Part shown: positions 696-50,380 of the stretch, piece after piece
Numbering within the stretch: the first letter of the stretch is position 1
How the letters are laid out: each line of letters starts with the position of its first letter
Source of the DNA: Subdoligranulum variabile
Lineage (GTDB): Bacteria; Bacillota; Clostridia; Oscillospirales; Ruminococcaceae
Assembly (NCBI RefSeq): GCF_025152575.1
Contig: NZ_CP102293.1
Span: 1,178,001-1,242,000 of the forward strand
Direction of reading: 5' to 3'
DNA length: 64,000 nucleotides
Notes under the pieces: generated by a model
What the model saw: only the letters and a program-made list of their open reading frames with translations
Database searches by the model: none
Told to the model about the DNA's origin: nothing
Position numbers and translations under genes: made by a program

Positions 696-1098
696 ACTTA
701 CTCCTTCGCTCCAGTTGCTTTATTGTTTGCAAGGAGAAATAGGCAACCCGGTTCACCTGATCAATTTCTCCTTCCAGTTGGTAGTTGAATCTCGGGTCAA
801 AACCTCCGACCATCTCAGAAAAATTATTCATTAGGATCGCGCTGTAAAATTCCACTGATTGTTGCGTTGTGTCCAACATCCGGACTCTGTTTGCAGTACC
901 ACCCGAAATAGGTTTGTCTGAACCAAGAACAGCTATATAAAGTTCCTCCGGATTCACCAAAAATTGAATATACGCAGGATTTTTCAACAGACGGATTGTC
1001 TGACGGTGAATACGAATTCGATTTCGGAATGGATCAAGCGTCAACGAAGCATGCACGGTTTTATCGTTTTTCACCTTTTGTCCCTTTGGATCAACCAT
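676..1098 (-). CDS. Small accessory protein with the recombinase C-terminal domain
   Basis: This 140-residue protein has no function I recognise. It consists almost entirely of a domain also found in the two genes upstream. The first signature is FLVNPEELYIAV (about residues 46-57), matching LLVNPAEMRFAV in the large recombinase and VLVNQESKILAI in the 259-residue protein. The second is a later GGFDPRFNYQLEG block, matching GWSQDLKYRIAG and GWNLDYRYKLLG. The ATG at 1096-1098 was preferred over an earlier in-frame ATG because AGGGAGGT precedes it by seven bases. The gene overlaps the genes on both sides. A role as partner or modulator of the recombinase is inference from homology and operon position. 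Confidence 0.75.
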   Translation of the reverse strand: MVDPKGQKVKNDKTVHASLTLDPFRNRIRIHRQTIRLLKNPAYIQFLVNPEELYIAVLGSDKPISGGTANRVRMLDTTQQSVEFYSAILMNNFSEMVGGFDPRFNYQLEGEIDQVNRVAYFSLQTIKQLERRSKYVRKEI

Positions 1099-1870
1099 GT
1101 TCTTGACCTCCCTTGAAAGCAGAATCATCTACCTTAGAATCTTTCTGGGCAGTATGGTCGCGGAGTCCATATACGGCATAGCCCTCAAAAATATCCACTT
1201 GCATAGACTTCTGGTGTTCCCGAAAGGGAAGGCCAAACTGTGTTTTCCATCCTTCCGGGAACACAGGTGTTCTGGAAGATTTTGGCTTTTCACCGTTTTT
1301 CAATACTCGCTGGTAAACCTCGGTGGCGGTAAGATCGAATGCAATCAGCCACTCATCTTTCGCATGGATCACGCGTCCCAGAAGTTTATACCGGTAATCC
1401 AAGTTCCATCCCATCAGTGAAAACACTTTGGCGAAAAAGATTTTGCAGGTTATCTGTTTAGGCTTACGCCGGCCGGTTCCATTGGTACACCATACACAGG
1501 CATCACGGTCTTCTGCGCGGCAAGGACGAATCGCCAGAATTTTGCTTTCCTGATTGACCAGTACCTGCACATGATCGACTTGCGGAAATCGATTCAGACA
1601 AGCCGCATTCACATAAAACTTGTAGTTATTGAAGGTCACGGAAGGTTCACTGATATGGGCAAAAAATTCTCGGCGTACTACCTGATATCCATCATAATTG
1701 AAGTCACCTGCAATTTCCAAAACATCATCCGTATTGTCTTTTTCGGACGCAACGGGCACACGCTCGTGCTCCAGAACAACAGATGCTTCGTCCTCCTGCT
1801 GTGTCCCTTCCAAAGAACGGAGCATCCCTGCGATTACCCCCTCTGTACTTTTACGGGGATCCTCATTCAT
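1091..1870 (-). CDS. Paralogue of the recombinase C-terminal half
   Basis: This 259-residue protein aligns by eye with the C-terminal third of the adjacent serine recombinase but lacks the catalytic and DNA-binding recombinase domains. Shared blocks are VLVNQESKILAI, GWNLDYRYKLLG and near the end FPEGWKTQFG followed by HQKSM, against VPEEWIGSFG and HQKSF in the recombinase. The first 60 residues are acidic and have no visible counterpart. The start ATG overlaps the recombinase stop codon in an ATGA junction, which indicates coupled translation. I infer that it arose by duplication of the recombinase tail and may join it in a complex. The biochemical role is unknown. Confidence 0.75.
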   Translation of the reverse strand: MNEDPRKSTEGVIAGMLRSLEGTQQEDEASVVLEHERVPVASEKDNTDDVLEIAGDFNYDGYQVVRREFFAHISEPSVTFNNYKFYVNAACLNRFPQVDHVQVLVNQESKILAIRPCRAEDRDACVWCTNGTGRRKPKQITCKIFFAKVFSLMGWNLDYRYKLLGRVIHAKDEWLIAFDLTATEVYQRVLKNGEKPKSSRTPVFPEGWKTQFGLPFREHQKSMQVDIFEGYAVYGLRDHTAQKDSKVDDSAFKGGQEHG

Positions 1871-3750
1871 TTAGATTCCTCCTTGCCATGTTGACTGAAT
1901 TCCTTGCGAATATAGTCCCTCAACACCTCAAAACCTGTTACGTGAAGTTTCTGCCCTGTTTCGTAAAGTTGGCCTTCCATTCGTATTTTCCAGTCCTCTT
2001 CACTCTGGTCACAGATTGCCGGGAAAGACTTCTGATGAAGGTAATACTGCTTTCCAAAAGAACCGATCCATTCCTCTGGAACGGCTCTTACCCTTTTACC
2101 AGAAATGGAAAGCGGTTGTACTGGATCTTGTGTTGCCTGTTCGCCTGCCTGGCCTGTGAGCAGATATGATTTTATAAATGCTTCCGCATCGTTGACATCA
2201 AAAATGTACGCCGATTCGCTTTCCGTTTGGTATAAAGCGCCCGCAATCCGATATTTTAAATCCTGGCTCCATCCGAACAATTCAAAAAGTGTTTCTGCAT
2301 AAGCAGCACCAGCAATTTCTCTGGGTTGATATTTCCCATTTACCAGTTTTGAAAAAACTACCGCATTGCGACTTCCTTTAGGGGCAGTACGCACGGCAAA
2401 ACGCATTTCCGCAGGATTGACCAACAACTCCACACAGTTATCTTTTCCAAAGGCCCGAACACAAGCAACACTAAACTTGACCTTCTTATCCTGAAACAGT
2501 ACATACGGTCGGAGATGATTATCAAAAAATTCACTCCGAGCAATTTCAAATCCTCGCATATCAAAATCTCCTGGGGACAGGGTAATACTCTTAGCCGGAT
2601 CTGTTTCCTCCCGCTGCTCTGCAGTAACCTGGATACTGATGGACGCTTGATAATAATCTGCAGGTTTGAACCCTGCCCATCGAGGATTTATGACCACAAA
2701 ACCTTTCAACAGGCCACTATCAATTACTCGAAGTTCAGGAAGAATCGAGCGATTTCCGTACTTGGAATTATTCAATAGATGCTGAACGGCAATAAAGTCA
2801 TCTCTCGAAATAATGCCCTCATGGTGATTTCGATATAAACTTTGAGGACGATCCCCTCTGTTTTTTCTGGCCTTGTGGTTTAGGTAATTAGGGGTGAAGG
2901 TTTTCCGCGTCAAAACATCCCCACAATGCCGCTCGTTACGAAGCACTTGTACAATGGAATTTGATGTCCATTTGATGTTTCCCAGATAAGTTTTGCGCCC
3001 CAGTTCAGTAAGTGCTGCCGCAATATCTGCGGTAGAATATCCATACAGGTACATATAGAAAATCAGTTTTACCGTAGGTGCTTCATCCGGATTGACTACC
3101 AGATTTCCTTCTGCATCGTGAGAATACCCAAGCAATTTGGGGGTAAGCGGTAACCCACCATCCAACCGCATCCGTAGGGAAGTTTCCATACTTCGGCTTC
3201 GGATATGCGATTCTTCCTGCGCCATGGTTGCCTGAAATGAGAGTGCCATTTGCGAATCATCCTTGAGGGAAAAAATACATTCACTCTCAAAAAACACCCC
3301 CACCGGGCTGGGCAACTCTGCAAGCATCCGTACCATACTGATGCAGTCGACCACATTACGGGCAAACCGCGACACGCTTTTGGTGATAATCATATCAATT
3401 TTCCCGCTGCGGCAATCGGAAATCATGCTATGGAACTCATCTCTGTGTGCCAGAGATGTTCCGCTGATTCCCTCGTCAGCATAGATTTTAACCAACGTCC
3501 AATTTGGATGATGTACGACGAAATCTTCGTAGTATTTCTTTTGAAGTTCGTAGGATGTTGTCTGCTGGACATTGTCTGTAGAAACCCGTGCGTATACAGC
3601 TACACGTTGTTCGACATCATTGTCGTAATAATCAATCGGCTTTTTGGCTGGAATAAATTCATAGTTTTCCGGATCAACCTTTGTATTAATTCGACGCCGC
3701 ACCTTGTCTTTCTTCTCTGCGAGTTTCTTTCTTGAATACTGGTCAATCAT
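1867..3750 (-). CDS. Large serine recombinase with an extra C-terminal domain
   Basis: Large serine recombinases integrate, excise or invert DNA by concerted cleavage through a serine nucleophile. The resolvase domain starts near residue 47 with VAVYARVSTD, whose serine is the nucleophile, and includes DEGISGTS and KSVSRFARN, where the conserved arginines are present. A recombinase DNA-binding domain follows (about residues 180-340; for example NERHCGDVLTRKTFT). The last 220 residues are unusual and recur in the two following genes. An obvious coiled-coil zinc ribbon tail is not seen. The ATG at 3748-3750 was chosen because CGGAGGGAG lies just upstream. It overlaps the previous gene by eight bases. 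The protein is 627 residues with this start. Confidence 0.88.
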   Translation of the reverse strand: MIDQYSRKKLAEKKDKVRRRINTKVDPENYEFIPAKKPIDYYDNDVEQRVAVYARVSTDNVQQTTSYELQKKYYEDFVVHHPNWTLVKIYADEGISGTSLAHRDEFHSMISDCRSGKIDMIITKSVSRFARNVVDCISMVRMLAELPSPVGVFFESECIFSLKDDSQMALSFQATMAQEESHIRSRSMETSLRMRLDGGLPLTPKLLGYSHDAEGNLVVNPDEAPTVKLIFYMYLYGYSTADIAAALTELGRKTYLGNIKWTSNSIVQVLRNERHCGDVLTRKTFTPNYLNHKARKNRGDRPQSLYRNHHEGIISRDDFIAVQHLLNNSKYGNRSILPELRVIDSGLLKGFVVINPRWAGFKPADYYQASISIQVTAEQREETDPAKSITLSPGDFDMRGFEIARSEFFDNHLRPYVLFQDKKVKFSVACVRAFGKDNCVELLVNPAEMRFAVRTAPKGSRNAVVFSKLVNGKYQPREIAGAAYAETLFELFGWSQDLKYRIAGALYQTESESAYIFDVNDAEAFIKSYLLTGQAGEQATQDPVQPLSISGKRVRAVPEEWIGSFGKQYYLHQKSFPAICDQSEEDWKIRMEGQLYETGQKLHVTGFEVLRDYIRKEFSQHGKEESK

Positions 3751-4348
3751 GCAGCATCTCCCTCCGGGTGTCATCTTCAGACAATATCTTCCAATCAGGA
3801 CCGGGCAAGAAATAAGGGTCGTGTAGATCCTCGCGATAATAGGAAGCCAATGTATAGATATCCTCTGAGACAAAATATATCCCCACCGGCTTGGGAAGCG
3901 CAGCCATCAGTCTCGCACAAAAAGACAATTCAGTAAGTTTTTTGGACACATTGCTCGCTTTCTGCGTGATAATCAAGTCCACCTTCTCATCGAAGCAATC
4001 TTGCAGAAGTCTGGCCCATTCTGAGGAGCTCTCCATATTGGGTGCGGTGCTTCCCTCATCAATATAGAAACCGATAAATTCCCAATTGGGACAGAGGGAT
4101 AAGGTGTCCAAAAATTGCTTTTTATGTGCAGAGAGATAATCTTCATATCGCGTCTGGTTAAAGTATCTGATGTATACTGCCACTCGATGATGATTTTCCG
4201 GATGTGGTCGTTCCCGTCGAATTTTCCTTAACCAGTTACGGTGCTCCGCCAAAAGAGCATTTTTTTCCAACTGTCCCTCTGACAACCAGTCAAAAGAAGG
4301 CATGACCATCTGCTCCATCCCTTGGTTTTGCATAGTCTGCTCTGGCAT
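3743..4348 (-). CDS. Serine-recombinase-like protein lacking the catalytic serine
   Basis: This 201-residue protein has a resolvase-type N-terminal fold but no DNA-binding recombinase domain. The strand that carries the nucleophile reads VAVYIRYFNQ, where active family members such as its neighbour read VAVYARVSTD, so the serine is replaced by phenylalanine. The arginine-bearing helix is also altered: TQKASNVSKKLTE stands against TKSVSRFARNVVD. The overall register (NWEFIGFYIDEGS, DLIITQ, LPKPVGIYF) stays clearly homologous. I infer a catalytically inactive partner or regulator that could form heterodimers with the next gene product. The start at 4346-4348 follows a G-rich Shine-Dalgarno, and it is the first gene of the operon. 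Confidence 0.8.
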   Translation of the reverse strand: MPEQTMQNQGMEQMVMPSFDWLSEGQLEKNALLAEHRNWLRKIRRERPHPENHHRVAVYIRYFNQTRYEDYLSAHKKQFLDTLSLCPNWEFIGFYIDEGSTAPNMESSSEWARLLQDCFDEKVDLIITQKASNVSKKLTELSFCARLMAALPKPVGIYFVSEDIYTLASYYREDLHDPYFLPGPDWKILSEDDTRREMLHD

Positions 4349-4410
4349 ATTGTGTCCCCCTATTATCGTGTCTTTCCCCCCATTATATAATCCATGCATC
4401 AATAACAAAA

Positions 4411-4444
4411 TCGACCAGAAGTCAAGAAATTGACTTCTGGTCGA
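4411..4444. promoter_or_regulatory. Perfect 14-bp inverted repeat in the recombinase operon promoter region
   Basis: Two perfect 14-base arms (TCGACCAGAAGTCA and its complement) are separated by six bases. On the minus strand they lie just upstream of a TATAAT-like -10 (about 4384-4389), which puts the repeat over the expected -35 region of the recombinase operon. An operator or a recombinase-binding site are both possible. A terminator is less likely because only a short T stretch follows. Confidence 0.6.
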
Positions 4445-4493
4445 TACACGATAAAAAAAGAAGCAACGAGAGTATCACCGTAACAAAATTTGG

Positions 4494-4664
4494 CTATTGT
4501 TTCCCCTTTCCAGATGTTTTATCATCCAAGCGCGTTTTATAATCATTGATTTTTTTCGGAACCACGTAGATGTATTCAATAACAAATCCAACGAATTCGG
4601 CCATTGCCTCTACATCATATTGATCTATTTCTAGGTCTTTATCATGAGCGGCTGTAGCAAACAC
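4494..4664 (-). CDS. Possible small ORF, 56 codons
   Basis: An open frame encodes a hydrophilic C-terminal half (EAMAEFVGFVIEY, then KKINDYKTRL) and ends in a lysine-rich tail. The only start is a GTG without a visible ribosome-binding site, and it lies beside the likely promoter of the divergent regulator gene. It may be a remnant of a longer gene. I do not recognise the product. Confidence 0.2.
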   Translation of the reverse strand: MFATAAHDKDLEIDQYDVEAMAEFVGFVIEYIYVVPKKINDYKTRLDDKTSGKGKQ

Positions 4665-5363: not shown

Positions 5364-5439
5364 TGGTGCACCATCGGGGACTCGAACCCAGGACCCACTG
5401 ATTAAGAGTCAGTTGCTCTACCAGCTGAGCTAATGGTGC
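5364..5439 (-). tRNA. tRNA-Lys (anticodon CTT)
   Basis: The minus strand folds as a standard cloverleaf: acceptor GCACCAT pairs with ATGGTGC, the D arm reads AGCTCAGCTGGTAGAGC, the anticodon loop contains CTT, and the T arm contains GGTTCGAGTCC. The CCA end is encoded. It is the last gene of the rRNA operon, after 5S. Confidence 0.95.
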
Positions 5440-5497
5440 ATATAAAGCAAACTCCGGACCGGGCCCAAGGCTCGGCCCGGAGGCTGCTTTGTAGAGA

Positions 5498-5614
<117 letters not shown>

Positions 5615-5651
5615 CATGCATATGACCTTGTCATCTGCTTCTCTTTTGTTG

Positions 5652-5684
5652 AGGATGTACCCTCAAAACTGAATATCGAACCGC
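5652..5684 (-). other. 23S rRNA processing stalk, 3' arm
   Basis: The transcript here contains ATATTCAGTTTTGAGGGTAC, which pairs with the segment just before 23S (8670-8702). Such stalks bring both ends of pre-23S together for RNase III. Confidence 0.75.
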
Positions 5685-5709
5685 TTTGCAAACAGAGTAT
5701 CTGATCAAG

Positions 5710-8543
<2,834 letters not shown>

Positions 8544-8669
8544 GTTGTTTATCTCTCGATAAACATATCTCTTTTCAGATTCTCCATTTGCCAACGAGAT
8601 TTTACCGCTTGGTGAAATTATAGATTTTATTAAAAAATCAGGAATTTTACTAGCTTAAAATCTCATTTC

Positions 8670-8702
8670 GCAGTTCTATATTCAGTTTTCAAGGTACTTC
8701 CT
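8670..8702 (-). other. 23S rRNA processing stalk, 5' arm
   Basis: The transcript contains GTACCTTGAAAACTGAATAT, complementary to the segment after 23S (5652-5684). The rest of the 16S-23S spacer outside the tRNAs shows no other feature. Confidence 0.75.
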
Positions 8703-8742
8703 TGCATAAGGATTTGGGTTACCCAGCACACTGGATAACCAG

Positions 8743-8819
8743 TGGTGGGCTGAAATGGACTCGAACCATCGACCTCTCGGTTATCAGCCGAGTGCTCTAA
8801 CCAGCTGAGCTATCAGCCC
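8743..8819 (-). tRNA. tRNA-Ile (anticodon GAT)
   Basis: A complete cloverleaf with encoded CCA: acceptor GGGCTGA, D arm AGCTCAGCTGGTTAGAGC, anticodon loop with GAT between GGCTGATAACC flanks, and T arm GGTTCGAGTCC. It is the second spacer tRNA, next to 23S. Confidence 0.95.
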
Positions 8820-8822
8820 AAA

Positions 8823-8898
8823 TGGTGGAGATAAAGGGATTCGAACCCTTGACCCCCTGCTTGCAAAGCAGGTGCTCTCCCAACTGAGCTATACCCCC
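8823..8898 (-). tRNA. tRNA-Ala (anticodon TGC)
   Basis: A complete cloverleaf with encoded CCA. The anticodon TGC sits in CTTTGCAAG and the T arm contains GGTTCGAATCC. The acceptor stem has two G-U pairs. It precedes tRNA-Ile in the transcript by three bases, the reverse of the common Ile-Ala order. Confidence 0.95.
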
Positions 8899-8957
8899 GC
8901 GCCTTTACAGCGTTTCGGGTTTCGCTGTCCCTTATGCTTTGAGGTTCGCTTTGCAGC

Positions 8958-8992
8958 GGCCCTCAAAATTGAACAATACTGAAACTTGTTTC
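8958..8992 (-). other. 16S rRNA processing stalk, 3' arm
   Basis: The transcript contains AAGTTTCAGTATTGTTCAAT, complementary to the leader segment at 10698-10732 with one or two mismatches. This is the expected RNase III stalk around 16S. Confidence 0.75.
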
Positions 8993-9039
8993 CCTGTCCA
9001 TTCACTCAAAGACCAGCTTTGACTGAATGTCTGACTCCC

Positions 9040-10568
<1,529 letters not shown>

Positions 10569-10767
10569 AAAATGGTATTAAATCACTTTATAAGTGTTTA
10601 ATCTTGTAAATCACTCAGACACAATCGCTTGCGTCCTGTTTGAATTACTTGTAATTTGGAATTGATTTACGTGGGTTTGGAAACCCACGATAAGGTTCCA
10701 CAAGTTTCAGTTTTGTTCAATTTTCAAGGTCCTGCTCGCTGTTCGCATCTCGCGTGACAGCCTATTT

Positions 10768-44990: not shown

Positions 44991-45206
44991 TGTACTGTTT
45001 GAAATACGTTCAAACAGTATTTAAAACCCCCGAAATCATCCTGCATAATTTACGAAACAGCGCGTTTTAACGGCTATTAAAACGGATTAAATAGACCAAG
45101 AAATGAAACGAAAAGAGATACACCATTCCCACCCTTATTTATGCGATTTAATGGAAACATTTTGTTTCTATTAAACACACCTGTTTCCTTTACGATATAT
45201 CGTAAA
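44991..45206. repeat. Candidate left end with transposase-binding repeats
   Basis: The stretch starts TGTACTGTTTGAAATACG, similar in form to the start of the phage Mu left end. The motif CTGTTT-four bases-TACG occurs at 44995-45008 and again at 45181-45194, and inverted AAACAG copies occur near 45012 and 45051. A perfect inverted repeat (TACTGTTTGAA, 44993-45019) and a palindrome TTTACGATATATCGTAAA (45189-45206) are also here. Mu-type ends start with TG and carry repeated transposase sites. Binding is not shown. Confidence 0.4.
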
Positions 45207-45318
45207 AAAGATTCTATGATGAAGCCATGCAAAAGCGGAAAGGTTTCCATTACTCATTCTCAAATACGCCTATAACTGAAAGTGTTATTTCCCAACAATA
45301 CCGATACAAAGCGCTCTT

Positions 45319-45660
45319 TTATTTGGTAAATGAATCGCGCAGGGTGTTTAACCGAGCCACTTCCTTTTCGATAAGTATATCAATGATTTCTCTTCCGGCC
45401 GGATCAAGCAGTCTATACCGCTCAATCATTGTGTATTCATCTTGTGAAATAGCTCGGGGCTTCGGAGAGTCGTCGAAATCTTCCAGTGTACAACTCAAAG
45501 CTCGCGCGATTGCTTTAACGGTTTCCAATTGTGGATCACGAGTAATTCCATTGATAATCTTGTTCAAAGTTCCTTTTGGAACGCCAGATCTATCCGACAG
45601 TTCATCAATCGTCATTCCTGCCTGTTTCCTTTTTTGCGATATGAGTGCTCCGATATCCAT
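45319..45660 (-). CDS. XRE-family repressor of the prophage
   Basis: A 113-residue regulator with an N-terminal helix-turn-helix domain (ISQKRKQAGMTIDELSDRSG and VPKGTLNKIING). The C-terminal part is helical. It lies leftmost and divergent to the early genes, the position of repressor c in Mu. It most likely keeps the early promoter off during lysogeny by binding the paired operators around 45722-45809. The start lies next to its promoter at 45686-45714. Confidence 0.85.
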   Translation of the reverse strand: MDIGALISQKRKQAGMTIDELSDRSGVPKGTLNKIINGITRDPQLETVKAIARALSCTLEDFDDSPKPRAISQDEYTMIERYRLLDPAGREIIDILIEKEVARLNTLRDSFTK

Positions 45661-45685
45661 TTACATTTCCCCCTTTATGGATTTT

Positions 45686-45714
45686 AGTATATCGTTTTCG
45701 CATAAGTGCGTCAA
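45686..45714 (-). promoter_or_regulatory. Repressor gene promoter
   Basis: On the minus strand TTGACG (45709-45714), a 17-base spacer and TATACT (45686-45691). Confidence 0.75.
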
Positions 45715-45721
45715 CAAAAAA

Positions 45722-45736
45722 TGCCGAATACGGAAC
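45722..45736. promoter_or_regulatory. Operator copy 1 of the lysis-lysogeny switch
   Basis: TGCCGAATACGGAAC is repeated in inverted form at 45795-45809 with one mismatch. It lies between the two divergent promoters, seven bases from the repressor promoter -35. Confidence 0.65.
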
Positions 45737-45755
45737 AAAAACACACATAAACGGG

Positions 45756-45784
45756 TTGACAAATTCCGTTTAAGGCATTATATT
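45756..45784 (+). promoter_or_regulatory. Early promoter of the prophage
   Basis: Consensus TTGACA (45756-45761), a 17-base spacer and TATATT (45779-45784). It drives the early operon and lies between the two operator copies. Confidence 0.8.
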
Positions 45785-45794
45785 GTAATAAAGA

Positions 45795-45809
45795 GTTCCG
45801 TATTCGGTA
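45795..45809. promoter_or_regulatory. Operator copy 2 of the lysis-lysogeny switch
   Basis: GTTCCGTATTCGGTA is the inverted copy of operator 1. It lies directly downstream of the early -10, where a bound protein would block the start of transcription. Confidence 0.65.
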
Positions 45810-45826
45810 TTTTTGGAGGTGCTGAG

Positions 45827-46033
45827 ATGTGTTATAGATTCTTGGAAGAAAAAATTAAGGAACGCGGAATTAAAAAGACTGCGATTTCCGTCGCGATAGG
45901 CGTAACGCCACGAGCTTTTAATAATAAGCTGTCAGGGAAAAGTCCCTTTACTTGGCCGGAAGTCCAAACAATTCAAAAGCGCTTCTTTCCGGATCTGGAC
46001 AAAGACAGGCTATTTCAACAAGAATCAGCCTAA
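45827..46033 (+). CDS. Small Ner/Cro-like early regulator
   Basis: The 68-residue product has one helix-turn-helix (KKTAISVAIGVTPRAFNNKL). As the first early gene, opposite the repressor, it occupies the place of ner in Mu, which turns down early transcription. The ATG at 45827 follows TTTGGAGGT; a longer open frame upstream is not used because this strong site starts here and the promoter lies just before it. Five bases after its stop codon the first hammerhead-like RNA begins. Confidence 0.75.
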   Translation: MCYRFLEEKIKERGIKKTAISVAIGVTPRAFNNKLSGKSPFTWPEVQTIQKRFFPDLDKDRLFQQESA

Positions 46034-46037
46034 TTAG

Positions 46038-46098
46038 TTGCCGAAACCGCCAGAGATGGCGGTCTGCCGGGGATGGCCGCCCGGTACTGATGAGGCAG
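46038..46098 (+). ncRNA. Hammerhead ribozyme, type II topology, copy 1
   Basis: All parts of the hammerhead core are present in type II order. Stem II strand TTGCC; GAAA (46043-46046); stem III CCGCC/GGCGG with six-base loop; cleavage triplet GTC (46062-46064); stem I TGCCGGG/CCCGGTA with an eight-base loop; CTGATGA (46087-46093); and stem II strand GGCAG. A15.1 and U16.1 pair as required. Predicted cleavage is between 46064 and 46065. The ribozyme lies between the early regulator stop and the next gene. Confidence 0.88.
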
Positions 46099-46119
46099 GC
46101 CAAGAAAGGAGAAATCTGG

Positions 46120-46362
46120 ATGCAAGTCTTGTATATCCTGGTAAAACGGGATTCCTGGAGCGGTGCAGGCTCCACCGTGGTCGAAAGCTATACCGACAAA
46201 GACATCGCCATACAGAAGCGGGATGAACTGAACCGAGCCGATGTTCGCAGACAAAAAGCCTGGTGCCGCCGCCATGGCCGCACCTGCCACCCTTGGGATA
46301 GATACCAGGTCACTAAGGAGACCCGGTACCAGGATGGCCGCATCCAGTGGGAACCGGCATGA
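46120..46362 (+). CDS. Early phage protein of unknown function
   Basis: An 80-residue product beginning MQVLYILVKRDSW, with a charged middle (KDIAIQKRDELNRADVRRQK) and a Trp- and His-rich end. The start follows AAAGGAG by nine bases. It is the first of three small genes between two hammerhead-like RNAs and overlaps the next gene in an ATGA junction. No family is recognised. Confidence 0.65.
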   Translation: MQVLYILVKRDSWSGAGSTVVESYTDKDIAIQKRDELNRADVRRQKAWCRRHGRTCHPWDRYQVTKETRYQDGRIQWEPA

Positions 46363-46736
46363 AGATAATCGACGCGATCCAGGAGGCCATGGGGCCGAGA
46401 TACACCACACTGGAGGACGCTCTGAACTGGTGGGCGTGGCCCGAGCATTGGCGGCGCGGCGCATGGGACAGTGATTTTGTGACAGGTATGAAGACTGTTA
46501 AAACGGCGTTTAATCGTCCATTCAAAAAGGAGGAAAAAGGGTTGGAAGATGCAATCTTGACGGCGCTGAAAGAAATGACCGGCGAAGAGCCCGGCACGAT
46601 CGAGAAGGCGCTGGAGCGGCATTACCGCCGGGAGCTGCTGGACATCTGGCTACGGTATGAGGGCTTGATCGGCTATACTGGTGAGATCCTGTATGTGATG
46701 GAGGCGCTTGGTTATGACATTGATACCGAAGAATGA
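46359..46736 (+). CDS. Early phage protein of unknown function
   Basis: A 125-residue product with a Trp-rich N-terminal segment (DALNWWAWPEHWRRG), a lysine-rich middle and a helical C-terminus (IEKALERHYRRELLDIWL). It overlaps the preceding gene by four bases and the following gene by 23. Not recognised. The location before the transposase suggests an early regulatory or anti-host role, but this is only position-based. Confidence 0.65.
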   Translation: MKIIDAIQEAMGPRYTTLEDALNWWAWPEHWRRGAWDSDFVTGMKTVKTAFNRPFKKEEKGLEDAILTALKEMTGEEPGTIEKALERHYRRELLDIWLRYEGLIGYTGEILYVMEALGYDIDTEE

Positions 46737-46965
46737 CCGGGTGCCGGTTCAGAAGCTGGGCGATCCACTGCTGGTTGGCGAGACTTACCCCAATGCTGGG
46801 AGCCAATACAAGGTGCTGAAGGTGGAAGGGTACTATGGGGATGCCTGGGTGCAGAACATCAAAAGCGGATGGACCTGCAAGGCACACCGCCCGGCCCTGT
46901 ACCTGATGCCGGATGGACAGATCGAACTGCAATGGGCTTACAGCACAGACGGACACTTTGAATAA
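46714..46965 (+). CDS. Early phage protein of unknown function
   Basis: An 83-residue product with alternating short strands (YKVLKVEGYYGDAWVQNI), perhaps a small beta-barrel. The ATG at 46714 follows GGAGG by nine bases, inside the end of the previous gene. The stop codon lies a few bases from the second hammerhead-like RNA. Not recognised. Confidence 0.65.
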   Translation: MTLIPKNDRVPVQKLGDPLLVGETYPNAGSQYKVLKVEGYYGDAWVQNIKSGWTCKAHRPALYLMPDGQIELQWAYSTDGHFE

Positions 46966-47028
46966 CAGCCGAAACGGCCCTGCGGGGCCGTCTGCTGAGG
47001 GTTGACCGCCCAGCACTGAGGATGGCAG
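46966..47028 (+). ncRNA. Hammerhead ribozyme, type II topology, copy 2
   Basis: The same architecture as copy 1 with different stems. GAAA (46971-46974); stem III CGGCCC/GGGCCG with a four-base loop; GTC (46990-46992); stem I TGCTG-A-GG/CCCAGCA with an eight-base loop like that of copy 1; CTGAGGA (47016-47022). Stem II (GCC/GGC) needs one extra base after the core, so it is weaker. Predicted cleavage is between 46992 and 46993. Base pairs change on both sides relative to copy 1, which is covariation. It ends at the transposase gene. Confidence 0.75.
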
Positions 47029-47048
47029 GTCGGAGTGAGGTGAGGATT

Positions 47049-49031
47049 TTGGAAGCGTTACTGAAGGCGACGGAAGTATCGGCGCTAACAGGAACCAGTG
47101 TGCAATATGTGCGGAGATTGGCAAAAGAAGGTCGGTATACTGACGTGCAGATACAAGTTAATTCCCATGGGAGAGCTTGTTATTTGATCCCGCTGTCGGC
47201 ACTGCCGGAGCAGGTGCAGAAAAAATACATGGATCAGCACCGCCCTGCCTCCGCTGCACCCCCCATGGGTAAGGGAAAGAAAGAAACGCCCGCCGCAGCA
47301 AGGCCGCTGGAAAGCTACAGCGCCGAGGAGCGGGCCGAGATCAGCTACTGGCTGGCCATGGTGGACCGCTGGCAGGAATACCGCCGCAAGGCGGGTGGCC
47401 GCAAGGCAGAATGCGATGAAAAGTTTGTGCTGCTGCGCCAGCTGGAGGAGCCGGAACGGCAGATCAGCGTAGAGACGCTGTACCGCAAGTGGGCGGCGAT
47501 CCGGGCCGGAGAATTAGATTCACTGGTAGACAAGCGCGGCAAGGCCCGCAAGGGCAAGACCGTGCTGCTGCCGGAAATCGAGCAGGAATTTTTGAGCCTG
47601 TTCTTGGATGAGGCGCAGTTGCCGATCCCCCGCTGTGTGGCGCTGACCGAGCAGTGGGCGCGGGAAAATATGCCCACGGCCCTGCCGCTGCCTAGCTATC
47701 ACACCTTTTACCGCAAAGCCAAGGCGGTACCCTATGCGGTGACGGTGCTGTGCCGGGAGGGCGAAAAAGCCTACTACGACAAGTGCAGCCCCTACATACG
47801 CCGCGAATACGAGAGTATTTCCGCCAACGACTTCTGGATCGGCGACACCCATACACTGGACGTGGAAAGCATGGGGCCGGATGGCCCCCTGCACCGCCTG
47901 TATCTGAGCGCCTGGCTGGATGCCCGCAGCGGTATTTTTACCGGCTGGTATGTGACCGCCAATCCCGGCAGTCAGGCCACGCTGAATGCGCTGCGCAAGG
48001 GCATTGCCGCCCGCGGCATCCCCCTAAACGTCTACGTGGACAATGGCCGTGAGTTCCTGACCTACGACATCGGCGGACGAGGTCACCGCGCCAAGAAGCG
48101 TCTGGCCGATGGCAGCGAACCTTTTGCCCCGCCGGGTGTGTTTGAGCGATTGGGCATCAAGATGACCAATGCCATTGTGCGCAATGCCCGCGCCAAGCTG
48201 GTGGAGCGGCGGTTCGAGGATTTCAAGAATTATGTAAGCCGGTTGTTCCCTACCTATACCGGCGGCAACGTGCTTGAAAAGCCAAACCGGCTGAAATATG
48301 TACTGAAGCAGGGCGACCATGTGCCCACGGACGCCGAAGTGATTGCGGCGGTGGACACGCTGATCGAAGGGTATCTGAACTGTGAGCCCTACGGTGGCAG
48401 TGTGGCCGAGGACAAAGGAAAAAGCCGCGTGGAGGTCTGGCGGGAAAGCCTGCCCAATGGCGCGGTACGACAACCGGCCAGTGAAAACGACCTGCAGCTG
48501 ATGCTGATGCGCACCAGCAAGCCGGTGCGAGTGACCCGCCGCGGCGTGACACTGAAGATCCACGGTCTGGAGTTGGATTTCTACACCCCGGAGCTGGCCA
48601 ACCTGCGCATGAAGGATAAGGTGTATCTGCGGTATGACCCGGAGGACCTGAGCAAAGTGCGGGTCTACGACCTGGAGGACCGTTTTCTCACGGAAGCCCC
48701 GCAGAGTAAGCTGACCGCCGGATATCTGGCTACACAGGAGCAGATCGCCGAGCTGATGGCCGCCAAACGTAAAGCCGAAAAGGCGGTGCGGGAGTACGGG
48801 CAGGCGCTGCGCCTGCCGGATGACCCGGAGCGGGCGCTCAATCTGGCCACCGCTCTGGCGCGCCACAATCTGGATGAACTGGAGCTGGCCCCCAAACCTA
48901 ACTGTATCGAACTGCGCCGCGCCGAACAGGAAGAACCTCTGCTGCGGGCGGTGGGCGATATTGATATTGGAGCAATGACCGAAAACCTGATCAGACAACG
49001 AGGAGGATTTGAAGATGGAGAAGACCTATGA
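47049..49031 (+). CDS. Mu-type transposase (MuA-like)
   Basis: A DDE transposase that cuts and joins the phage ends. The product has about 660 residues. An N-terminal winged-helix end-binding region (LLKATEVSALTGTSVQYVRR) is followed by the catalytic core: Asp in GDTHTLDVES, Asp in VYVDNGREF and Glu in AKLVERRFEDF. A C-terminal domain binds the MuB-like protein. I chose TTG at 47049 because GAGG lies eight bases upstream; an ATG at 47022 is in frame but sits inside the ribozyme core without a ribosome-binding site, so the true start is uncertain. The MuB-like gene begins within its end. Confidence 0.92.
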   Translation: MEALLKATEVSALTGTSVQYVRRLAKEGRYTDVQIQVNSHGRACYLIPLSALPEQVQKKYMDQHRPASAAPPMGKGKKETPAAARPLESYSAEERAEISYWLAMVDRWQEYRRKAGGRKAECDEKFVLLRQLEEPERQISVETLYRKWAAIRAGELDSLVDKRGKARKGKTVLLPEIEQEFLSLFLDEAQLPIPRCVALTEQWARENMPTALPLPSYHTFYRKAKAVPYAVTVLCREGEKAYYDKCSPYIRREYESISANDFWIGDTHTLDVESMGPDGPLHRLYLSAWLDARSGIFTGWYVTANPGSQATLNALRKGIAARGIPLNVYVDNGREFLTYDIGGRGHRAKKRLADGSEPFAPPGVFERLGIKMTNAIVRNARAKLVERRFEDFKNYVSRLFPTYTGGNVLEKPNRLKYVLKQGDHVPTDAEVIAAVDTLIEGYLNCEPYGGSVAEDKGKSRVEVWRESLPNGAVRQPASENDLQLMLMRTSKPVRVTRRGVTLKIHGLELDFYTPELANLRMKDKVYLRYDPEDLSKVRVYDLEDRFLTEAPQSKLTAGYLATQEQIAELMAAKRKAEKAVREYGQALRLPDDPERALNLATALARHNLDELELAPKPNCIELRRAEQEEPLLRAVGDIDIGAMTENLIRQRGGFEDGEDL

Positions 49032-49980
49032 CCTGACCCTGATCCAGCGGGTACAAGCCTACATGGAGCAGAACAGCATCAGCCAGAACCAGTTGGCGGG
49101 CAAAGTCAATATTTCCAGCGCAGCGCTGAGCAGTTACCTGAACCAGAAATACAAGGGCTCCGTAGAGGCGGTGGAGCGGCAACTGCGGGAGTTTTTCAAG
49201 ATCACCGAGGAGGCGGCAGCAGTCGCCGAGAGAACCGGCGACCTGCTCGTCCGAGAAGAGTACATTCCGACCTCCATCTCGGAGGACGTATACCAGAGCA
49301 TCCGCTTTGCCCAGCTGGAGCACTGCATGGTGGTGCTGCACGGTGATGCCGGTGTGGGCAAGAGCAAAGGCGCGCAAAAGTTCCTGCGGGATCACGCCGC
49401 CAGCGCCGTGGGGGTCAGCATCACCCCCAGCACCGGCAATCTGACCGGGGCCATCAAGCTGCTGGCCAGAGCCGTGCGCGTGCCGGAATGCCGCAATAAG
49501 ATGGACCAGGTCGTGGCCCTGCGCCAGCGACTGGACGGAACCAACATGGTGATCGTCATTGATGAAGCCCAGCACCTGAAGTACGCGGCGCTGGAGGAAA
49601 TCCGCGCCCTGACCGATGACAACCCCATGACCGGGGAGCATGGCGTGGGTGTTGTGCTCATCGGAAACAGCGAGGTGTACAGCCGCCTGCAGGGACGGCA
49701 GCAGGCACAGTTCGCCCAGTTGTTCAGCCGCATCCGTATGCAGCGGGAATATACCACCCGTAAGGTCAAGCGTGAAGATGTGGAGAAACTCTTCCCGGTA
49801 TTGGCGCAGCGCGGAGCCAAAAAGGAGCTGGACTTCTTGCTGAGCGTGTGCCGCAGCCCGTGGGGCATCCGCGGGGCCATGAACCTGTACACCAACGCGG
49901 CCAGTGCCGAGAGCGTGGATTACGAAAACCTGTACCGCATGGCGGCCCACATGGGCATCGGTATGCTGGCGCAGGTATGA
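49015..49980 (+). CDS. MuB-like AAA+ ATPase with helix-turn-helix
   Basis: MuB activates the transposase and captures target DNA. The 321-residue product has an N-terminal lambda-repressor-like helix-turn-helix (SISQNQLAGKVNISSAALSS), then an AAA+ core with Walker A GDAGVGKSKG and Walker B VIVIDEAQHL, and a basic C-terminus. The ATG follows AGGAGG by eight bases and overlaps the transposase gene by 17. Confidence 0.9.
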   Translation: MEKTYDLTLIQRVQAYMEQNSISQNQLAGKVNISSAALSSYLNQKYKGSVEAVERQLREFFKITEEAAAVAERTGDLLVREEYIPTSISEDVYQSIRFAQLEHCMVVLHGDAGVGKSKGAQKFLRDHAASAVGVSITPSTGNLTGAIKLLARAVRVPECRNKMDQVVALRQRLDGTNMVIVIDEAQHLKYAALEEIRALTDDNPMTGEHGVGVVLIGNSEVYSRLQGRQQAQFAQLFSRIRMQREYTTRKVKREDVEKLFPVLAQRGAKKELDFLLSVCRSPWGIRGAMNLYTNAASAESVDYENLYRMAAHMGIGMLAQV

Positions 49981-49993
49981 GGAGGATAGAGCC

Positions 49994-50380
49994 ATGAACA
50001 AGTGGAAGTTTGGTGTGGTGTTTGCGGCGGGAGTCGCAGCGGGCGCTTTTTGTATGATTGCCTTGCAGACCGGCTTTGGGAGAAGCGGCCGCCCTGGCGG
50101 TGAAATACTGGTGCTCCCGATGGTAGTGTTACTCCTGTGGGCCGGGTGGTGCCTGGGGCGGAGCCGGGATACCTTTCCGATGATGGGAGTGGCCGAGACG
50201 GACACCGATGCTGAGGAATACGTAAAAGAGAATCTGCCCGGATACTGGAGCGGGTATAGCGATGGATACGACGATGCGCTGGAAACGATGGAGTTTTCCA
50301 AGCCGGTGCGCAACAGGCCGGAGAAAAAGCGGCGGCGTAAAGATCGGAAAGCCGTGCCGGAACGGCGCAAGGGGGCGTAA
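49994..50380 (+). CDS. Small membrane protein of the early phage operon
   Basis: A 128-residue protein with two membrane helices (FGVVFAAGVAAGAFCMIAL and ILVLPMVVLLLWAGWCL), an acidic-aromatic stretch (YWSGYSDGYDDALE) and a very basic tail (EKKRRRKDRKAVPERRKG). The ATG follows GGAGG. The following 95 bases before the next gene contain GC-rich hairpins (for example GGGGGCGTAAGCCCCC). No function assigned. Confidence 0.6.
   Translation: MNKWKFGVVFAAGVAAGAFCMIALQTGFGRSGRPGGEILVLPMVVLLLWAGWCLGRSRDTFPMMGVAETDTDAEEYVKENLPGYWSGYSDGYDDALETMEFSKPVRNRPEKKRRRKDRKAVPERRKGA

Follow-up and report, generated by a model that had tools for sequence, protein, structure and literature searches.

Type II hammerhead ribozymes as candidate processing sites at the head of exchangeable gene cassettes in a Mu-like prophage

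Many small self-cleaving ribozymes occur in bacterial prophages, and their role is treated as an open question in the available text of PMC10085705 and PMC6155905. The stretch of Subdoligranulum variabile DNA analysed here (64 kb, referred to as the window) contains the early end of a Mu-like prophage, in which two type II hammerhead ribozymes enclose three small genes ahead of the transposase. The locus raises the question of what ribozymes in this position do, both for the early transcript and for the evolution of the phage.

The window ribozymes join an already described group, the prophage type II hammerheads, since both Perreault 2011 (PMC3088659) and PMC10085705 describe such ribozymes in their available text. 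In the former, pseudoknotted type II hammerheads are reported to occur in multiple copies in prophages, where they flank genes or short blocks of genes. The present locus, whose two copies enclose three genes next to a Mu-type transposase, resembles these clusters in its type II fold, in the pseudoknot that joins loop I to the 3' tail, and in the presence of several copies flanking genes. The latter names Mu-like phage genes as the strongest ribozyme neighbours and calls the reason unknown. The novelty proposed in the original prediction is therefore not upheld; what is added here includes the comparison of cassette swaps between sister prophages.

The early region and its two ribozymes

The early region comprises the following features, in window coordinates.

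45319..45660, minus strand: divergent HTH repressor-like gene (HTH_3, 1.4e-15; phage repressor PHROGs)
45756..45784, plus strand: early promoter-like site, TTGACA-17-TATATT (11/12, by consensus match only)
45827..46033, plus strand: small Cro/repressor-like gene, 68 aa (phrog_4583, E 2e-4; its TAA ends 5 nt short of ribozyme 1)
46039..46104, plus strand: type II hammerhead ribozyme 1 (Rfam RF02276, 61.0 bits, E 3.5e-10; predicted cleavage at 46064/46065)
46120..46362, plus strand: cassette gene 1, 80 aa (without Pfam or PHROGs match; Shine-Dalgarno at 46106-46111)
46359..46736, plus strand: cassette gene 2, 125 aa (without Pfam or PHROGs match)
46714..46965, plus strand: cassette gene 3, 83 aa (without Pfam or PHROGs match; its TAA ends 1 nt short of ribozyme 2)
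46967..47034, plus strand: type II hammerhead ribozyme 2 (RF02276, 48.6 bits, E 6.4e-7; predicted cleavage at 46992/46993; CTGAGGA core)
47049..49031, plus strand: Mu-type transposase, MuA-like (Mu-transpos_C, 1.1e-12; phrog_310, 7e-111)
49009..49980, plus strand: AAA transposition protein, MuB-like (AAA_22, 8e-18; phrog_296, 4e-59)

As first predicted, three genes (46120..46965) lie between the hammerheads. The predicted cuts enclose an RNA of 928 nt and lie 55 nt (ribozyme 1) and 56 nt (ribozyme 2) before the start codons of gene 1 (ATG 46120) and of the transposase, which probably starts at TTG 47049, after the Shine-Dalgarno sequence GAGGTGAGG. The earlier suggestion that the second cut would begin the transposase message is supported. 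We identified 5 promoter-like sites in the region, against 2.8 expected in shuffles. Both ribozymes are plausibly crossed by one transcript, because the sole further promoter-like site on the plus strand of 45200-50000 scores lower (9/12) and no terminator-like site was found on that strand of the same interval. Elsewhere in the window, an rRNA operon (16S, tRNAs, 23S, 5S) occupies 5367-10571 on the minus strand.

In a covariance search with RF02276 (Hammerhead_II; gathering score 37 bits) the 3.24-Mb genome yielded four matches at E up to 1, and only the two window copies exceeded the cut-off, in agreement with the claim that both are type II hammerheads. A model of our own, which both copies helped to train, gave 78.0 bits to ribozyme 1 and 73.8 bits to ribozyme 2. 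The core, the stems and the GTC triplets ending at the two predicted cleavage sites read as originally described, with GAAA, NUH and CUGANGA elements, stems I and III closed and stem II open. Ribozyme 1 consists, in order, of the first strand of stem II (46039-46042, pairing with 46094-46097), GAAA (46043-46046), the stem III hairpin, GTC, the stem I hairpin and CTGATGA (46087-46093). A pseudoknot between loop I and the 3' tail, absent from the original description, can be read from the sequence in both copies: TGGCC (46074-46078) with GGCCA (46098-46102) in ribozyme 1, spanning 46074..46102 on the plus strand, and GACC (47004-47007) with GGTC (47028-47031) in ribozyme 2.

The compensatory stem changes claimed from the two copies were borne out in an alignment of 54 copies, compared with 500 shuffles. 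The proposed pairs were paired in 94.9% of cells, against 82.4% in shuffles, and the covariation score was 0.407 against 0.169, a value that none of the 500 shuffles reached; sliding the partner by 1 to 3 columns reduced pairing to 45% or less. The number of pairs changed on both sides is a weaker measure, being 13 against 10.6 in shuffles, with 25 of 500 shuffles reaching 13. The pseudoknot was paired in 93.7% of cells of the same alignment, with three of its five pairs changed on both sides, and its variants include UGGCC/GGCCA, GGUCU/AGACC, GCCC/GGGC and AGUCU/AGACU. Minimum free energy folding, which cannot model the pseudoknot, does not choose the hammerhead as the minimum: the nested hammerhead fold lies 4.3 kcal/mol (ribozyme 1) and 11.5 kcal/mol (ribozyme 2) above it, with a median of 7.05 kcal/mol over the 54 copies.

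The CGAAA and CTGANGA core is intact in 120 of 132 copies, and CCGANGA replaces CTGANGA in 8 of the 132 (L066 8413, L076 6349, L090 3640 and five others). A chance match of the motif was rejected on the RF02276 scores and the covariation. Anatomy and covariation, both read from sequence, identify the two motifs as pseudoknotted type II hammerheads.

Distribution and placement in related phages

We investigated the occurrence of hammerheads in 297 genomes of the host family, of which 27 had a match at E 1e-4 or better, 24 a match over the Rfam cut-off, and 24 a Mu-type transposase. At E 1e-4, hammerheads were found in 19 of the 24 transposase genomes against 8 of the 273 others, and over the Rfam cut-off in 17 and 7 of these, respectively. 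In viral contigs selected by their transposase, we identified 86 hammerhead copies in 48 of 79 loci, with all 86 model matches on the transposase strand; 25 of these 48 loci hold two or more copies. Among the 70 eligible loci, in which the transposase start and at least 100 nt of upstream sequence were present, a hammerhead lies within 700 nt upstream of the transposase in 46 and within 60 nt in 35, and the remaining 24 have none within 700 nt. Of the 35 copies within 60 nt, 24 sit 11-17 nt before the transposase start, as estimated from the alignment. These viral fractions describe this transposase branch and not Mu-like phages at large, because the transposase alignment used to find the loci derived from hammerhead-bearing phages and because at least 7 of the 79 loci hold copies that trained the search model (L120, L143, L144, L151, L191 and the near-duplicates L140 and L145). 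Loci of the genomic family were likewise partly selected for the presence of a hammerhead.

Other ribozyme classes were considered as substitutes for the hammerhead, and in the 12 of 31 hammerhead-free viral loci that were scanned, the only ones to pass were a twister-P5 in L171, some 1.4 kb ahead of the transposase, and a RAGATH-28 in L169, on the downstream side. A mixed ribozyme array is present in L092 (G207:C29), in which one hammerhead, two twister-sister and four RAGATH-5 motifs lie on the same strand within about 4 kb (714-4623). We additionally noted a type-P1 twister in L008 (1926-1989), a contig with a 91% identical transposase, where it lies downstream of both the transposase gene and the AAA gene.

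The ribozymes are tightly packed between a stop codon and a Shine-Dalgarno sequence. In 72 of 120 copies (the 132 copies less 7 without the start pattern and 5 too close to a contig end), an open frame of 50 codons or more has its stop at -3 to +6 of the ribozyme start, against 527 of 13,200 random positions and 0-11 of about 120 when the copies were shifted by 15-30 nt as a control. In 43 of the 120 the stop codon overlaps the ribozyme, 29 of these stops being UAG within UAGCC; in the window, the stops abut the two ribozymes without overlap, at the gaps listed above. On the other side, 31 of the 44 copies of an earlier copy set are followed within 25 nt by a Shine-Dalgarno sequence and start codon (random, 515 of 4,400); when the distance is widened to 40 nt, 37 of the 44 are (random, 711 of 4,400). 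In contrast to the present analysis, the available text of Perreault 2011 (PMC3088659) mentions neither the stop-codon overlap nor a test of joints between sister prophages, 'stop codon' occurring 0 times in the main text, and a literature search covering mostly non-subscription papers found no report of such an overlap, nor one of recombination joints formed by ribozymes. A ribosome that terminates on the upstream gene would occupy part of the ribozyme, so that cleavage and the translation of that gene may hinder one another.

Exchange of genes at ribozyme junctions

Sister prophages differ in the cassettes that they carry. In the sister prophage L106 (contig IMGVR_UViG_3300018488_000375; the sequence of L144 is used under this name), a left block consisting of the repressor, the Cro-like gene and the ribozyme start is 97.2% identical to window 45319-46109, and a right block (1279-2204) is 94.8% identical to window 46040-46965, with an extra ribozyme and gene unit of 556 bp between the two. 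Both alignments terminate in, or at most 5 nt from, window ribozyme 1, because L106 has the extra unit there. Window ribozyme 1 is itself a mosaic, equal to sister ribozyme a at all six informative left-border sites, the last of which is the first base of stem II, and to sister ribozyme b in stem III (with one private base) and in the 3' tail; one site in the loop of stem I once more has the base of sister ribozyme a. Such a pattern suggests that an exchange took place inside the ribozyme, the simplest position being within 46039-46048. Beyond ribozyme 2, L106 has a different transposase (40% protein identity), and this switch begins at the gene 3 stop and not in the ribozyme, because in L106 45 nt without counterpart lie between that stop and its ribozyme.

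The genes themselves differ unequally between the two prophages. The Cro/repressor-like gene (45827..46033) has 1 difference in 207 nt, and across the cassette genes (window 46120-46965 against L106 1359-2204) we found 1 nt in 243 in gene 1, a synonymous change, 26 in 378 in gene 2 (14 synonymous and 7 nonsynonymous codon changes) and 19 in 252 in gene 3 (15 synonymous and 4 nonsynonymous). From these counts, the gene 1 part was perhaps exchanged more recently than genes 2 and 3. Within the extra cassette of L106, a minus-strand frame at 1013-1210 (MTDAQKRAIL...), which has a good Shine-Dalgarno sequence and overlaps the 3' end of the plus-strand gene, is a probable gene.

Two further cases of presence and absence were identified. 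L005 has a unit between two ribozymes at a place where L073 has one ribozyme, and a ribozyme present with its gene in both L074 and L161 is missing from L169, together with most of that gene, to judge from the alignment ends.

We extended the comparison to all junctions by masking the ribozymes and scoring whether homology extends across each junction, in 113 of 117 loci after removal of near-duplicates (four near-duplicate locus pairs). In these counts locus pairs are not independent, each being counted from both sides, and the control junctions come from mechanical and rough gene calls, some of them mis-started (for example a call at 46056, inside ribozyme 1). At 80% identity, homology switches at 27 of the 31 ribozyme junctions that have an informative partner. 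Of the other junctions, those lying up to 5 kb upstream of the transposase switch in 22 of 54 cases (Fisher p 3e-5 against the ribozyme junctions) and the remainder in 92 of 251. The corresponding counts for ribozyme and nearby junctions are 36/40 against 45/79 at 75% identity and 17/23 against 12/43 at 85%, and the excess is weaker at 90% (10/18 against 7/35, p 0.013). At transposase-leader junctions, in a very small sample, a switch was found at 7 of 9 with a ribozyme against 1 of 5 without.

To judge from the aligned sequences, the ribozyme tends to go with the unit downstream of it, because at 80% identity the partner retains it in 22 of 22 pairs that share the downstream side alone against 9 of 15 that share the upstream side alone; pairs sharing both sides retain it in 8 of 8. 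At 75% identity these counts are 33/34, 10/17 and 8/8, respectively.

The masked test supersedes two unmasked counts, because conserved ribozymes can stretch alignments: 28 of 180 alignment ends fell within 25 nt of a ribozyme, where 2.8% were expected, and a permutation test gave 16 of 43 ribozyme junctions hit, against a mean of 6.8, with 0 of 5,000 permutations as high. Seven loci were dropped as duplicates of known contigs (L111, L116, L120, L143, L144, L151 and L191), and the fetched loci L054, L087, L088, L089, L091 and L098 were excluded from the break-point tests.

Proposed processing and cassettes, with rival explanations

We consider it rather probable, with odds of about two in three, that the hammerheads are processing sites heading exchangeable gene cassettes in the early transcript of Mu-like prophages. 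Their placement, their travel with the downstream gene and their coincidence with homology switches are properties of the sequences themselves. In the cell, the hammerheads would cut the early transcript into mRNAs of gene size. With stems I and III each forming a closed hairpin, every cut would leave a hairpin at both ends that it creates: stem III near the 3' end of the upstream message, right behind the stop codon, and stem I at the 5' end of the downstream one, shortly before the Shine-Dalgarno sequence; these hairpins may protect the mRNA ends. Each ribozyme would act as a portable 5' leader of the gene or genes that follow it. In evolution, the ribozymes would be joints at which cassettes are inserted, lost or swapped, with a crossover inside the ribozyme in the one case in which it is mosaic, and mRNA ends free of their context would make such swaps tolerable.

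In RiboJ-type insulators, a ribozyme cuts away the sequence context upstream, and what stays ahead of the ribosome-binding site is a structured 5' leader. The prophage hammerheads are predicted to be alike in both respects. Differing in this from RiboJ, only 4 of 132 copies have a hairpin with 6 or more perfect pairs ahead of the ribosome-binding site, close to the rate in random 45-mers (80 of 2,640), and the window copies are not among the four. The hairpin AAAAAGCCCGC...GCGGGC, between ribozyme and Shine-Dalgarno sequence, is perfect in L069, L072 (6698-6735), L140 and L154 and imperfect in L066 and L070, and since it is confined to this subset of loci a general RiboJ-like hairpin after the ribozyme was rejected.

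It is less likely, although still worth serious weight, that the ribozymes serve plain mRNA processing or regulation of the transposase, their coincidence with recombination joints merely reflecting a variable early region. The preferred distance of the nearest copies from the estimated transposase start would suit this account, and mRNA processing has already been proposed in Perreault 2011 (PMC3088659), the available text of which reports that native tandem arrays cleaved in vitro and one in E. coli. However, nearby early junctions without a ribozyme switch less often than those with one, and one ribozyme is itself mosaic, which both speak against a merely variable region.

We regard as improbable the suggestion that the ribozymes are merely repeated DNA that promotes recombination, with cleavage a relic. 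Copies are more alike within loci (79.7% identity) than between them (68.0%; 0 of 500 label shuffles as high), yet only 20 of 72 copies have their closest relative within their own locus, near-duplicate loci being included in both counts, and the covariation of stems and pseudoknot, together with the intact core of most copies, argues for selection on the fold.

Hammerhead cleavage leaves 5'-OH and 2',3'-cyclic phosphate ends, which are suited to ligation. A retrozyme-like release of the 928-nt RNA, as originally proposed from the paired ribozymes, with the RNA circularised and maybe mobile, is very improbable and was rejected as the best reading, having no specific support beyond those ribozymes and the reverse transcriptases present elsewhere in the genome. 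As in the retrozymes described in the available text of PMC4918200, two hammerheads delimit a segment of roughly 600-1000 nt; there the ribozymes are held in LTRs of about 350 bp and the segment is non-coding, whereas here type II ribozymes lie in the operon of a DNA phage, the segment has one copy in all in the genome, a repeat finder reported no direct repeat of at least 20 bp in 45300-47700, and the segment holds three genes that are conserved in the sister prophage, with mostly synonymous codon changes in genes 2 and 3. The RtcB ligase was not found in the host by a search that gave a match in 9 of 14 control genomes. Neighbouring ribozymes in relatives are spaced 245 to 3,297 nt apart, so that no fixed RNA circle is conserved, and in comparable arrays spliced or circular products were sought and not detected (PMC3088659, available text).

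Returning to processing sites that head exchangeable cassettes, a broader version holds that a ribozyme leader with its gene or genes forms a natural plug-in cassette in Mu-like phages, in which cassettes are gained, lost or replaced through recombination between ribozymes and obtain their own mRNA ends by cleavage wherever they land. We advance this only tentatively, at a little under even odds; if true, it would answer why any self-cleaving ribozyme class fits these sites. The available text of PMC10085705 describes the same association of Mu-like phage genes with ribozymes (there hammerhead and twister), and differs in that the exchange of a unit of ribozyme and downstream gene is seen here. 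If the ribozymes are joints of exchangeable cassettes, then one explanation would cover their association with Mu-like phages, their occurrence in clusters, the presence of unrelated genes from one copy to the next and the mixing of ribozyme classes, and the swap of whole cassettes at ribozymes may help to explain why ribozymes sit there.
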